This document shows positions 18,496 to 34,165 of a DNA stretch of 34,165 nucleotides, piece by piece. Source of the DNA: a virus. The translations under genes were made by a program, and so were the position numbers. Position 1 is the first letter of the stretch; each line of letters opens with the position of its first letter. The DNA lies in the IMG/VR virus record IMGVR_UViG_3300008267_000175, positions 1 to 34,165 of that record; one strand, 5' to 3'. The notes below the pieces were generated by a model. That model searched no databases. It was not told the DNA's origin and saw only the letters and a list, made by a program, of their open reading frames with translations.

Positions 18496-20007
18496 ATGAC
18501 CATACAGTTTAGATCCAGAATAAAACCAGCAATAGATTACTCGACCATATTAAATTCATATGGTGTTTGTTGTGGAATCACCGGATCAACTGGACCATTA
18601 AAATCCTTTATTGAATGTTTTAATGAGGGTGGGCATTTTATACCTGTAAAAAATGAAGATCCAAATTCAGTTTCATGTCCAGATGTTGATATTAGAAGAG
18701 GATGCTGTTGTTCGTGTTCATATGTAACACCAGGGGAACTCAATCAAATACCAACATATTCAACTCCATTTACAGGAATCCCATATATTTCATCTGGTGT
18801 TAGAAGTAATGTTTCTAAATGTGAATGTGATCGTATTGGTGGAAAATGGACTGAAGGTGAATGTCCAACATTATCTTCTACTAATTGGCAAAATCTGTGC
18901 GTAAAAGAAAATCAAGATGTTCGTGCTCCAAGAGCATGTTGTCATTTGGGATTTGATGTTGATACTGGTTGGCCAACAGAAATTATTTGTACAGACGTTT
19001 GCACTTCAGTTGATTGTGCAAATCTAGGAACAGATGTATATCCTTCTGTTTTTACAGATAATAAAAGATGCGGAATTCCACCATTAAATTCAGGTGATAT
19101 TCCGGTTCAATGCGAACAAAGTGAATACGTTACTAAAATGGCACTTTCCACTCGCCTATATGAAGGGTTTCAAATGGGTTCATGTTATGAATTAGAACTT
19201 AATGATGAAAACACCTATGAATATACATGTTCGATTACTCCAGAATCAATTTGCACTGGTTATTGGGTACAAGAACAAAATGAAAATTATCCATATTGCA
19301 CATCATCATATCAACCAACAAATCCAGTAAAATCAAACAACAGATATTTATCACAAACAATGACTTTGAGTGATTTTAATAATTATGGTCTTACTTCTGG
19401 TGATGAGTTTCATGGTGGAATATATATTGGAATATTCAAACCATCACCTCTTAATGGTGAAAGTAGTTTAGTAAGAGGTAATCTTGCTTTTGGAACACCT
19501 TCTTCCTATAAATTTATTGGTGATGATATTGGTGGAACTTCCTCACAGTGGGCAATAATTGTTGATCCAGTTGAATACACGGTTCCATTTCTAAATGAAG
19601 ATGAAAGAGATATTCATTATCAAACATCATTATGGGATGGTTATTATAACACATATGGAGATAATTCTAATTTTTATGGAATACAAACTGCGCTTACAAA
19701 AACAATAGCAAATCAACCACGAAATGGATTTTTAGATTATTATCTACCATCGATATATGAACTAAGTTTTTATTGTCAATATCTCTATAACAAAAATCAG
19801 TCACTAGATGCAAATTTAATATCTTCAAGTATTTTTAGCAGTAAGTACTTGAATTCATCAACAAATAAAAGTAAAATAAATAACAAAACATTTATATACG
19901 GTCATTCTCTATCAACAGATCTGGGAGTTAATAATTTTAAAAATGTTCTTATATATAAAAAGAACACAGAAACTGCATTGTTTTTTAGACGTATAATTTT
20001 AACATAA
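18496..20007 (+). CDS. Short adhesin: Cys-rich region plus degenerate C-type-lectin-like tip
   Basis: A 503-residue member of the same adhesin family with most of the stalk missing. Near residues 25-33 it has CCGITGSTGP, only a few Gly-X-Y residues and merged with the first CC pair. C25 to C268 is cysteine-rich (RGCCCSCSY, CECDRIGGKW, RACCHLG, GSCYELE). GDEFHGGIYIGIF starts at about G302 and matches the pre-tip motif of the 8079 gene. The tip has DYYLPSIYELSF around residues 414-425, parallel to WYVPSIDEL, but the WSST motif is replaced (KYLNSSTNKSK) and the end is FFRRIILT. It may be a shortened receptor-binding or accessory fibre protein; the function of a degenerate tip is uncertain. Confidence 0.6.
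   Translation: MTIQFRSRIKPAIDYSTILNSYGVCCGITGSTGPLKSFIECFNEGGHFIPVKNEDPNSVSCPDVDIRRGCCCSCSYVTPGELNQIPTYSTPFTGIPYISSGVRSNVSKCECDRIGGKWTEGECPTLSSTNWQNLCVKENQDVRAPRACCHLGFDVDTGWPTEIICTDVCTSVDCANLGTDVYPSVFTDNKRCGIPPLNSGDIPVQCEQSEYVTKMALSTRLYEGFQMGSCYELELNDENTYEYTCSITPESICTGYWVQEQNENYPYCTSSYQPTNPVKSNNRYLSQTMTLSDFNNYGLTSGDEFHGGIYIGIFKPSPLNGESSLVRGNLAFGTPSSYKFIGDDIGGTSSQWAIIVDPVEYTVPFLNEDERDIHYQTSLWDGYYNTYGDNSNFYGIQTALTKTIANQPRNGFLDYYLPSIYELSFYCQYLYNKNQSLDANLISSSIFSSKYLNSSTNKSKINNKTFIYGHSLSTDLGVNNFKNVLIYKKNTETALFFRRIILT
18568..19299 (+). repeat. Cysteine-rich region of the short adhesin
   Basis: This encodes C25-C268. It includes a CCC-S-C cluster, the CECDRIGGKW turn and later CC/C units. The spacing is less regular than in the other three adhesins. 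Confidence 0.6.
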
Positions 20008-20588: not shown

Positions 20589-20595
20589 TTAAAAG

Positions 20596-20629
20596 AACTC
20601 TCCTTATAAATAAAATAAGGAGAGTTTTT
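20596..20629 (+). terminator. Rho-independent terminator after the adhesin operon
   Basis: A perfect 12-bp stem, AACTCTCCTTAT (20596-20607) with ATAAGGAGAGTT (20615-20626), a 7-base AT loop and a TTTTT run (20625-20629). It sits 7 bases after the stop of the Cys-rich gene and just before gp13. Confidence 0.9.
20605..20612 (+). promoter_or_regulatory. Late promoter TATAAATA inside the terminator loop, for gp13
   Basis: An exact T4-type late -10 element covering the end of the left terminator arm and the loop. A start about 6-7 bases downstream would give a leader of roughly 13 bases containing GGAG (20619-20622), itself part of the right terminator arm, before ATG 20632. Confidence 0.75.
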
Positions 20630-28764: not shown

Positions 28765-28772
28765 TATAAATA
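28765..28772 (+). promoter_or_regulatory. Late promoter TATAAATA after gp20
   Basis: An exact late -10 octamer beginning at the base after the gp20 stop. It ends 17 bases before ATG 28790, so the predicted leader is about a dozen bases and contains AGGAG. Confidence 0.85.
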
Positions 28773-31824: not shown

Positions 31825-31832
31825 AATAAATA
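31825..31832 (+). promoter_or_regulatory. Probable late promoter AATAAATA for gp23
   Basis: One mismatch (first base) to the late octamer. It ends 24 bases before ATG 31857 and is followed by a strong AGGAGAG site. The surrounding poly-A-rich text lowers specificity. Confidence 0.45.
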
Positions 31833-31856: not shown

Positions 31857-33329
31857 ATGTCATTAGATTTTAATAATACGTCACCCTATGATCAATTAGT
31901 AGAAAAGTGGTCACCAGTTCTTGATCACTCAGATATGCCATCAATTAACGATCTTCACAAGAAGAGAGTTACAGCAGTCCTTCTTGAAAATCAAGTGAGG
32001 GCAATGGCAGAAGAAAGAGCATCAGGAAACCTCTTTGAAAATACAATGGGACCAATCGGCATCGGTGGTAATTTCACCACTGGTCAAGTTGGTGCAGCAG
32101 GAAACTTTGCTGGTTATGATCCAGTCCTCATCTCACTTGTTCGCCGCGCAATGCCAAACGTCGTAGCATATGACATCGCTGGCGTTCAACCAATGAGTGC
32201 TCCAACTGGACTTATCTTTGCAATGCGCGCTCGTTACGGAAACGATTCTTCTGGTTATACGCTCGGAACCGAAGCACTCTTTGATGAACCATGGGCTAAG
32301 TTCTCTGGTGTTTGTGGTGCATCTGGTCCTGGTGGACAAAACTACGGAGTTCTTTTAACTGGTTCATCTGCTGGTGTATTCACCACAGGAGCAATGGGTA
32401 ATGGTGTTACATACATTACACGCCTTGATACATTCTCACAATTCCGCGGAATGTTAACAACAACCGCAGAATCTCTTGGTGCAAATACAGCAACATCAGA
32501 TTTCCGTGAAATGGCATTCAGTATTGAAAGAGTCGCAGTACAAGCACGCTCACGCGCTCTCAAGGCAGAATATACAACCGAACTTGCACAAGATCTTCGT
32601 GCTGTTCACGGTCTTGATGCTGAAGCAGAACTTGCTAATATTCTCTCGGTTGAAATCATGAACGAAATTAACCGCGAAATTCTCAGAGCAATGTATTATG
32701 TTGCTAAGACTGGTTGCCAAAATGCTGATCTCGCAGGAGCAGTTGGTGGCGGTGTTGGTGGTGTATACGATCTCGTCAATGACTCAGACGGTCGTTGGTC
32801 AGCAGAACGCTTCCGTGGACTTATGTTCCAAATTGAACGCGAAGCAAATCAAATTGCTAAGGATACTCGTAGAGGAAAGGGTAATTTCATCGTATGCTCC
32901 GCTGACGTTGCTTCAGCACTCGCAATGGGTGGATTCCTCAATCTCTCACCAGCACTCAATGTAGACATGCAAGTAGATGATACTGGTAATGTCTTCGCTG
33001 GTGTACTCAACAATAAGTTCAAGGTTTATATCGATCCATTCGTTGCCAACAACGTTAACTTCGTCACCGTTGGTTACAAGGGAACATCACCATATGACGC
33101 AGGATTCTTCTACTGCCCATACGTTCCACTACAAATGGTCAGAGCAGTCGGTCAGGATACCTTCCAACCCAAGATTGGATTCAAGACTCGTTACGGTCTA
33201 GTTGCCAATCCATTTGCTGGTGGAAGAAATTCAACCTTCTCCGCTTCAAACGATGATGGTTTACAAGCAAGCACAAATGCTTACTACCGCCTCTTCGCAG
33301 TTACAAATCTCCACGGCAACACCGCCTGA
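31857..33329 (+). CDS. 23: Major capsid protein gp23
   Basis: A 490-residue protein (T4 gp23 is 521). The N-terminal delta region includes LVEKWSPVLDHSDMPSINDL and AVLLENQVRAM. Then LVRRAMPNVVAYDIAGVQPM (about 94-113), followed by SAPTGLIFAMRARYG, is the diagnostic HK97-fold block of T4-type gp23. Also FREMAFSIERVAVQARSRAL and KAEYTTELAQDLRAVHGLDA. In T4 cleavage occurs at an L-x-E site in this region; here NLFE at 58-61 is the closest match but is followed by Asn, so the exact site is uncertain. Codon choice differs from neighbours (more CGC, CTC and C-ending codons), as expected for the most abundant protein. A strong AGGAGAG site and a terminator bracket it. Confidence 0.97.
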   Translation: MSLDFNNTSPYDQLVEKWSPVLDHSDMPSINDLHKKRVTAVLLENQVRAMAEERASGNLFENTMGPIGIGGNFTTGQVGAAGNFAGYDPVLISLVRRAMPNVVAYDIAGVQPMSAPTGLIFAMRARYGNDSSGYTLGTEALFDEPWAKFSGVCGASGPGGQNYGVLLTGSSAGVFTTGAMGNGVTYITRLDTFSQFRGMLTTTAESLGANTATSDFREMAFSIERVAVQARSRALKAEYTTELAQDLRAVHGLDAEAELANILSVEIMNEINREILRAMYYVAKTGCQNADLAGAVGGGVGGVYDLVNDSDGRWSAERFRGLMFQIEREANQIAKDTRRGKGNFIVCSADVASALAMGGFLNLSPALNVDMQVDDTGNVFAGVLNNKFKVYIDPFVANNVNFVTVGYKGTSPYDAGFFYCPYVPLQMVRAVGQDTFQPKIGFKTRYGLVANPFAGGRNSTFSASNDDGLQASTNAYYRLFAVTNLHGNTA

Positions 33330-33352
33330 TAGATCGAAATAACTAAACCGAG

Positions 33353-33385
33353 AACCCAGGGTGAAATACCCCTGGGTTTTCTTTT
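33353..33385 (+). terminator. Rho-independent terminator after gp23
   Basis: A 9-bp stem, AACCCAGGG (33353-33361) with CCCTGGGTT (33370-33378), an 8-base loop and the T-rich tail TTTTCTTTT ending at 33385. It is GC-rich against an AT-rich background and 24 bases after the gp23 stop. Confidence 0.92.
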
Positions 33386-33392
33386 ATAAATA
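33385..33392 (+). promoter_or_regulatory. Late promoter TATAAATA abutting the gp23 terminator
   Basis: An exact late -10 octamer whose first T is the last base of the terminator T tract. It ends only 5 bases before ATG 33398, so transcription would start at or next to the start codon. Confidence 0.75.
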
Positions 33393-33397
33393 CTAAT

Positions 33398-33988
33398 ATG
33401 CCAAACAACTTGGATCAGATCATAATCCAAAATGTACCAGATAGCATCATTCGCGATTTGCCTGGTGATGCATTATTTGAAAACTTTTTCCAACCAACGA
33501 CACATAATAATCTAACAAATAATAAGTTTAGATTTATTTTAACTCGTTGTCCAACGCTTACATATTTTTGCCAACGAGCAAATATACCATCATTAAGTTT
33601 TGGGACAACAGTACAATCAAACCCAACTGGTGTTTCAATAAGAAGACCTGGAACTTCATATGTTTATGAAGACCTACAAATAGGGTTTGCTGTTGACGAA
33701 AATATGAAAAATTGGTTGGAAATTCATAATTGGATCAAAGATATTGGTCTTTCATATAATAGAAATACTGAAACATTATACGAACATCAAAAAGTAGCAA
33801 ATGCTTATCTTTTGGTTTTAAACAGTGCATATCGTCCAATTATAACAATCAAATATAAAAACATTTATCCCACATTTGTAAGTAGTGTAGATTTTGATTC
33901 TTCACTACCAGACACAGATCCAATTATAGCAACTGCTACATTTGCATATACACATTATGAAGTTGATGTATTGACTTCAAACCCCTGA
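33398..33988 (+). CDS. Tail-tube-fold structural protein (gp19/gp48/gp54-like)
   Basis: A 196-residue protein. Text NNKFRFILTRCPTLTYFCQR, ANIPSLSFGT, VSIRRPGTSYVYEDLQIGFA and VDENMKNWLEIHNWIKDIGL matches a family common in marine T4-like phages that has the tail-tube fold. The same strand order is seen in gp19 at 26621. Related T4 proteins are gp19 (tube) and gp48/gp54 (baseplate tube cap and initiator). Which role applies cannot be set from sequence; tube initiator or completion protein is likely. No Shine-Dalgarno site precedes ATG 33398, and the late promoter leaves no room for a leader, so leaderless translation or read-through from gp23 is implied. Confidence 0.65.
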   Translation: MPNNLDQIIIQNVPDSIIRDLPGDALFENFFQPTTHNNLTNNKFRFILTRCPTLTYFCQRANIPSLSFGTTVQSNPTGVSIRRPGTSYVYEDLQIGFAVDENMKNWLEIHNWIKDIGLSYNRNTETLYEHQKVANAYLLVLNSAYRPIITIKYKNIYPTFVSSVDFDSSLPDTDPIIATATFAYTHYEVDVLTSNP

Positions 33989-33999
33989 TATTATATAAT
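33971..33999 (+). promoter_or_regulatory. Sigma70-type promoter TTGACT-17-TATAAT
   Basis: The -35 TTGACT (33971-33976, one mismatch to TTGACA), a 17-base spacer and a perfect -10 TATAAT (33994-33999). It straddles the 3' end of the tube-fold gene. The expected start falls at about 34005-34007, on the ATG of the next gene. It suits an early or middle gene read by unmodified host polymerase. Confidence 0.75.
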
Positions 34000-34006
34000 T
34001 TTTATT

Positions 34007-34165
34007 ATGAACATCGAACAAATAAAAGCACAAGCAGAAATAGACACCGTTATTGACACAAATCATCTTGATGATGAAGCATCAAGAATTCCACAAATAC
34101 ACAACAAATATCTGTGTATTTTAATGGATGAAAAATTAGTGTTAGAATCGTTTGATTCTAAATTA
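34007..34165 (+). CDS. uvsY: Probable UvsY recombination mediator, 5' part
   Basis: Only the first 53 codons are inside the window, and the frame is still open at the right edge. The text MNIEQIKAQAEIDTVIDTNH, then LDDEASRIPQIHNKYLCILM, resembles the N terminus of T4-type UvsY (short acidic helix, 'ID...L..EA', then a helix with H/S-KY/W-L). UvsY loads the UvsX recombinase onto gp32-coated single-stranded DNA, an early/middle function, which fits the sigma70-type promoter just upstream instead of a late octamer. No Shine-Dalgarno site is visible. Because only a third of the protein is seen, another small helical protein is possible. Confidence 0.55.
   Translation, partial: MNIEQIKAQAEIDTVIDTNHLDDEASRIPQIHNKYLCILMDEKLVLESFDSKL

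Follow-up and report, generated by a model that had tools for sequence, protein, structure and literature searches.

The late promoters of phage T4 are marked by an 8-bp box, TATAAATA, which spans positions −13 to −6 (excerpt of PMC1524935) and lies about one helical turn from the start of transcription (excerpt of PMC2988020). Leaderless (‘TA-led’) genes, in which the start codon follows a −10-like signal at about 12 bp, are described from many bacteria (excerpt of PMC3160421), and ribosome binding of the 5′-terminal AUG has been described for leaderless messages (excerpt of PMC9031893). Phage messages are called often leaderless in an excerpt of PMC5312081. The message of lambda cI has a 5′-terminal AUG without a leader, according to excerpts of PMC9031893 and PMC5312081, and resembles in this the message proposed below. 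For pelagimyophages, attempts to predict middle and late promoters did not succeed (excerpt of PMC7029224). Among the titles and abstract openings listed in literature searches, none reported that T4-like or SAR11 phages have leaderless messages. A transcriptome of cyanophage Syn9 has reportedly been published.

The DNA studied here, a viral record of 34,165 bases (hereafter, the window), covers part of a T4-like phage's structural gene block. Its genes include portal gp20, scaffold, gp23, a gp3-like gene and the start of uvsY, in this order; the order gp23-gp3-uvsY is the same in cyanophage DSL-LC02. By gp23, the closest named phages are cyanophages (57%) and Pelagibacter phage Mosig (55%). 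The features around the junction between gp23 and the gp3-like gene are listed below, where N5 means five bases between a promoter box and an ATG.

31825–31832, + strand: box AATAAATA of the gp23 gene's own leader, followed by 24 nt including AGGAG and by ATG 31857 (pairing with the anti-SD, −7.4 kcal/mol)
31857–33329, + strand: gp23 major capsid protein gene (Pfam Gp23, E 8e-136)
33350–33385, + strand: intrinsic terminator of gp23 (stem-loop 33350–33381, T tract up to 33385)
33385–33392, + strand: −10 box TATAAATA of a putative T4-type late promoter (exact match; −13 to −6 in the T4 convention)
33393–33397, + strand: five-base spacer CTAAT (−5 to −1), constant in length and variable in letters among relatives
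33398–33400, + strand: start codon ATG and predicted transcription start (+1 = A33398, by the spacing convention)
33398–33988, + strand: gene for a gp3-like tail completion protein of 196 aa (PHROG 45 tail tube, E 1.3e-32; cyanophage gp3 by tblastn)
33971–33999, + strand: near-consensus promoter of the sigma70 type, TTGACT-17-TATAAT, where gp3 ends, with N7 up to the uvsY ATG 34007
34007–34165, + strand: gene for a uvsY-like recombination mediator, running off the contig (N-terminus shared with UvsY-matching genes of relatives)

Terminator, late box, five bases and ATG abut, without a Shine-Dalgarno (SD) sequence; this part of the original prediction is read directly from the DNA. The stem-loop has 12 pairs, 7 of them GC, and is followed by TTTTATAAAT, so that a GC-rich stem-loop and a T tract are both present, as in an intrinsic terminator. 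The fold of 33348–33387 has an energy of −21.7 kcal/mol (z −5.1), which none of 200 shuffles equalled. T33385 is common to the T tract and the late box. Because the T4 late box occupies −13 to −6, the predicted +1 is the A of ATG 33398, and the arithmetic by which the message had been predicted to begin at the ATG is right, with the T4 start distance assumed for a distant gp55. The gene has an AUG start and no SD, as a leaderless gene should. The 22 nt upstream of ATG 33398 gave a best pairing of +1.5 kcal/mol with the anti-SD string, and those upstream of the uvsY ATG gave +0.6 kcal/mol, as compared with −5.4 to −9.3 kcal/mol for eight other hand-picked genes of the window, gp23 included. Some further window genes inside operons, which have no promoter of their own, also appeared by eye to have no SD.

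In the window, TATAAATA was found 6 times (4.84 expected). The other exact copies lie 17–25 nt before an ATG with SD (3831, 20605, 25330 and 28765) or are intragenic (18413). TATAAATA-N5-ATG occurs once against 0.09 expected, and at least once in 8 of 100 shuffles. From these counts we rejected an excess visible in the window by itself. Within the window alone, the box-N5-ATG arrangement could be due to chance; across relatives it is not, and the strength of the case comes from conservation.

Two of the other boxes have features of their own. The TATAAATA at 28765 directly follows the gp20 stop; the ORF there was called from TTG 28742, and its start is more likely ATG 28790, 17 nt after the box and with AGGAG. 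At 20593–20629, a hairpin AACTCTCCTTAT...ATAAGGAGAGTT followed by T's (fold −18.3, z −6.8) lies directly ahead of ATG 20632, where a gene assigned by PHROG as head-tail adaptor starts, and the late box 20605–20612 spans the end of its 5′ arm and the loop. The layout is repeated in the related contigs G001, G002 and G005. A late start at the AGGAGAG would free the SD that upstream messages would lock.

The product of the gene at 33398 had been called a tube-fold protein. It is a homologue of gp3, a tail completion protein, and matches the tail tube family PHROG 45; its match to the Pfam tail tube falls under the curated cut-off and its identity to cyanophage gp3 is 38% or less (tblastn). Both the family and the placement between gp23 and uvsY are those of gp3. 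The true start might be a later codon, TTG 33410 or TTG 33458, with the ATG fortuitous, and the majority of the 60 listed tblastn matches do start at residue 26–36. However, the alignment takes in M1 in 8 of 8 relatives, the window among them, the ATG is retained in all 24 distinct close junctions, 22 of which also have the N-terminus MPxN, and neither TTG is preceded by an SD. These observations agree with the start at ATG 33398 that had been predicted, and we consider a later start most improbable.

The original prediction had named a comparison of the spacing in related phages as a check. The first scan of viral contigs, with the gp3 protein, covered 80 of 164 loci, of which 76 were listed with upstream DNA (L020, L047, L049 and L056 were left out). 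Among these 80 of 164 loci, the box-to-ATG distance in 46 close loci was N5 in 36, N6 in 8 and N7 in 2; counted as 24 distinct close junctions, it was N5 in 19, N6 in 4 and N7 in 1, and an SD-like four-mer was present in the 25 nt upstream in 0 of the 24. A second scan used an alignment led by a distant relative and partly reached the same contigs; its best 80 of 494 added 26 distinct junctions, 25 with the box at N4–7 and one, L167, at N12. The start was not found in 5 of the 175 records of the junction listing.

A quick tree was made of 96 distinct gp3 proteins, excluding identical proteins, L020, L054, L056, L100, L108 and rows whose upstream DNA or protein was short; HTVC008M, Melnitz, phiM19 and others are on long branches in it. 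A clade of 55 distinct proteins, the window's included, had an SH-aLRT of 97. Box-N4–7-ATG was present in 54 of the 55 rows (N5 in 46, N6 in 5, N4 in 2, N7 in 1), and the remaining row, L125, is a contig cut at the gene start that begins inside gp3. The spacing is thus conserved in the manner predicted, while 24 different spacers occur among the 55 rows and the gp23 terminator is kept with changing stem letters.

Outside the clade the arrangement differs. L167, which adjoins it, has AGGA in its N12 spacer. The neighbouring rows L060–L078 keep terminator and box and have 17–27 nt with an AGGAG-type SD before the gp3 ATG, except for L074, which has no box near. In another neighbouring group, L050–L059, there is no late box near gp3, and L053 has one 29 nt off. 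Because the neighbouring gp3 groups have an SD leader or a different arrangement, the predicted leaderless layout is a trait of the clade, where it is held down to 43% identity, with L045. As a separate observation on L050–L059, gp3 is not behind the gp23 terminator there, and all four junctions seen for the next gene retain TGATATAAT-N6-ATG.

The layout is not confined to gp3. We measured distances from promoters to ORF starts, taken as the first ATG of each frame, in eight clade contigs (the window, G001–G005, G011 and G012). TATAAT/TATACT showed a peak at N6–7, the sigma70 distance (21 of 72; 3.3 expected), as did TGNTATAMT (12 of 19); a rearranged motif gave 1 of 56. TTGACA was at the right distance in four of the clade cases (G001 112420, G002 107692 and 28330, G005 70053). 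For late boxes, 31 of 151 were at N4–7 (18 at N5) and 93 at N13–28. An SD-like word accompanied 3 of the 31 and 77 of the 93 leadered genes, a contrast that is partly built in, since a box at N4–7 leaves no space for an SD. The strict box TATA[AC]ATA was at N4–7 in 12 of 63 (5.9 expected), and ATAAATA was at N5 in 14 of 110, against at most 3 of 56 for twelve permuted heptamers. By contig, the N5 late boxes were clear in G011 (p 0.0002), weak in G001 (0.018) and G002 (0.027) and not significant in the other five; homologous genes recur across contigs, so that pooled p-values overstate independence. Counts blind to ORFs gave little excess of TATAAATA-N5-ATG (10, against 5 in a reversed control over 10 contigs) and no clear excess of TATAMT-N5–6-ATG, a pattern that misses N7 (45 against 36 over four clade contigs).

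Besides gp3, the late genes at N4–7 include those for a baseplate wedge subunit (assigned by PHROG in G001, where we take it to be gp25-like; same N-terminus in G002, G003 and G005) and for head closure (G001 copy; same N-terminus in G002). The sigma70 genes at N6–7 include dUTPase (G001) and DNA polymerase (G011). All three related contigs that were searched have a gp55 homologue, in a region that the window does not reach.

It had been suggested that a leaderless message would keep gp3 low beside the very abundant gp23. The same design occurs at uvsY and at DNA polymerase, dUTPase, baseplate wedge and head-closure genes. Because these unrelated genes share the layout and the gp3 of a neighbouring group carries an SD leader, this reason is unnecessary, and we set aside the layout as a marker of low gp3 dosage.

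The uvsY gene that follows is preceded by a promoter of another type. Its N-terminus is shared with genes of relatives that match UvsY of cyanophage DSL-LC03. A scan of the window found 6 sigma70-like sites against 8.4 expected, so a match alone proves nothing, and the window's uvsY is absent from the sigma70 distance count above as its frame leaves the contig. Among 45 distinct uvsY junctions of the clade, a −10 sequence was at N6–7 in 30 and an SD-like word was present in 5, as compared with N6 in 7 and an SD in 10 of the 17 junctions outside the clade. uvsY is probably a second leaderless start, predicted to be served by a host-type promoter.

Outgroup phages lack these peaks. Late boxes at N5 numbered 0 of 26 in syn9, 2 of 34 in P-SSM4, 0 of 36 in DSL-LC03 and 0 of 15 in C48C1; in the T4 relative RB32, 1 of 32 was at N5 and 21 were at N13–28, which differs from the window's gp3, where the start codon is at the predicted +1. 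No significant late-box peak was seen in the three cyanophages and the T4 relative. The sigma70 −10 sequence was at N6–7 in 0 of 13 (syn9), 1 of 21 (DSL-LC03), 0 of 26 (P-SSM4) and 0 of 35 (RB32), and there was likewise no peak in HTVC008M (1 of 19) or Mosig (2 of 21); the counts were 0 of 20 in Melnitz and 2 of 29 in C48C1.

Two cultured phages, both with Pelagibacter HTCC1062 as recorded host, do share the late layout. In Mosig, gp3 is preceded by the gp23 terminator and then GATAAATA-TTAGT-ATG, as in the window, and late boxes at N5 are enriched (6 of 33). In HTVC008M, gp3 has ACTAAATA-GTAAT-ATG, but one extra gene stands between gp23 and gp3, and there is no terminator in the 30 bases up to the box. 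Its late boxes are also enriched at exactly N5 (11 of 25, gp3 included), with 14 at N4–7; 10 of these 14 lie within 5000–50500, and all 10 coincide with deposited CDS starts. The genes concerned include tape measure, DNA end protector, head completion and a baseplate wedge. At 18916/18943 the divergent DNA end protector and head completion genes stand back to back, each with a late box at N5.

HTVC008M and Mosig differ from the window's clade in having no sigma70 peak and in standing apart from it, on long branches, in the gp3 tree. Because of this position, the leaderless trait may have more than one origin, or may have been retained in more than one line. Promoters that lie on start codons could also explain why late-promoter prediction failed in pelagimyophages.

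In Melnitz, 3 of 30 late boxes are at N5, and 22 nt separate the box from the gp3 ATG. Just before gp3 (locus L265), TATAAATA-N5-ATG opens a frame of 8 codons that overlaps the gp3 start and has AAGGG inside. This frame possibly represents a 5′-terminal upstream AUG like those in an excerpt of PMC4965119.

Might the layout reflect compaction only? The promoter and ATG would then be squeezed behind the terminator, their spacing would be irrelevant to translation, and gp3 would be made mainly from gp23 read-through by SD-independent initiation. The genes are indeed tightly packed, and an SD-like word precedes 303 of 689 clade ORFs, so that many lack one. But the mode in the clade is exactly N5, with none below 4; it is again exactly N5 in HTVC008M, whose gp3 shows no terminator in the 30 bases up to the box; and the peak of the sigma70 promoters is at the distance that fits their +1. 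Compaction alone predicts neither peak, and we regard this explanation as unlikely.

The distance could also have been a feature of the promoter, if its start region itself favoured ATG. Of the leadered late boxes, none of 93 in the clade had the triplet at N5, nor did any of the 95 pooled from three cyanophages, RB32 and C48C1, and on these counts we rejected this idea for the window's clade; Mosig does have it at 1 of 18 such boxes and Melnitz at 2 of 13. Late boxes without a nearby gene start showed no N5 peak for ATG (10 of 410 in the clade). The sixth base after the box was a purine in 82 of the same 95 leadered promoters, as expected if transcription starts there; among the clade's 93, purines showed no clear peak (66 at +1, 52 at −1 and 70 at +2).

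These data also bear on the possibility that transcription begins 1–3 nt ahead of the ATG and leaves a minute leader. The N6 and N7 junctions in 6 of the 55 rows would fit this, and T ends most spacers. The mode at N5 and the purine preference at that position in the 95 promoters speak against it, and a minute leader seems quite unlikely to us. Instead, the spacing kept with changing spacer and terminator letters, the absence of an SD, the specificity of N5-ATG for gene starts in the clade and the recurrence of the design at other genes favour the leaderless gp3 message originally proposed. Judged from sequence, gp3 is very probably leaderless, expressed from a late box whose +1 is its own AUG, as part of a branch-wide habit in which uvsY probably shares.

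From this architecture, its conservation and its enrichment, we infer the true 5′ end of the gp3 message, the use of gp55 in the window's phage and initiation on a 5′ AUG. Late in infection, gp55-RNA polymerase would recognise TATAAATA at 33385–33392 directly behind the gp23 terminator, open the AT-rich stretch and initiate at A33398, so that the gp3 message would start with its own AUG. Because leader and SD are absent, the ribosome would bind this 5′-terminal AUG directly. The terminator upstream would stop gp23 messages from running on, which would make gp3 a late unit of its own; read-through could give a longer gp3 message as well. uvsY would do likewise from a host-type promoter. In the branch as a whole, a share of the promoter-proximal genes would be leaderless while others keep an SD leader, and the same may hold for late genes of SAR11 myophages.

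As markers of the host of the window's clade, psbA (Photo_RC) and WhiB were found in 0 of 17 and 0 of 20 records, respectively, many of the records being fragments. When GTDB genomes were scanned with the gp3 alignment, a single distant locus turned up, in a Marinimicrobia assembly. In G011 (L199 17857–18249) there is a tmRNA gene with the tag ANNNNYMAIAA, together with several tRNAs; these could be of use in identifying the host.

The predicted promoter of gp3 is like T4 late promoters, whose use requires the sigma subunit gp55 and the clamp gp45, in its 8-bp box, the AT-rich stretch downstream and the gp55 homologue of related contigs, and like them it would do without a −35 sequence. Lambda cI is a single gene of a temperate phage, whereas here a T4-like lineage would have a habit that involves host-type and late promoters. 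The ‘TA-led’ genes of bacteria are alike in the −10-like signal about 12 bp upstream and the absence of an SD; they differ in that they belong to cellular genomes and have sigma70-like signals, as far as the excerpted source describes them, while the T4-like phages here would also use the phage late box.

We think it likely that leaderless messages serve for part of the genes in a whole T4-like branch and, separately, in SAR11 myophages, where gp55 late promoter and start codon form a single element, and that the window's branch uses host-type promoters in the same way. A guess about one site thereby becomes a prediction for a lineage, namely late promoters that have their +1 on the start codon, and it is testable in the Pelagibacter HTCC1062 host of HTVC008M and Mosig. 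If it is true, a late box plus five bases to ATG would be a simple rule by which gene starts and late promoters of these phages could be annotated, and late-promoter searches upstream of leaders would miss the promoters on start codons. Some T4-like phages of environmental bacteria would then do without SD leaders for some of their genes, and their infected hosts would translate 5′-AUG messages well, which would bear on translation in infected SAR11-like hosts.
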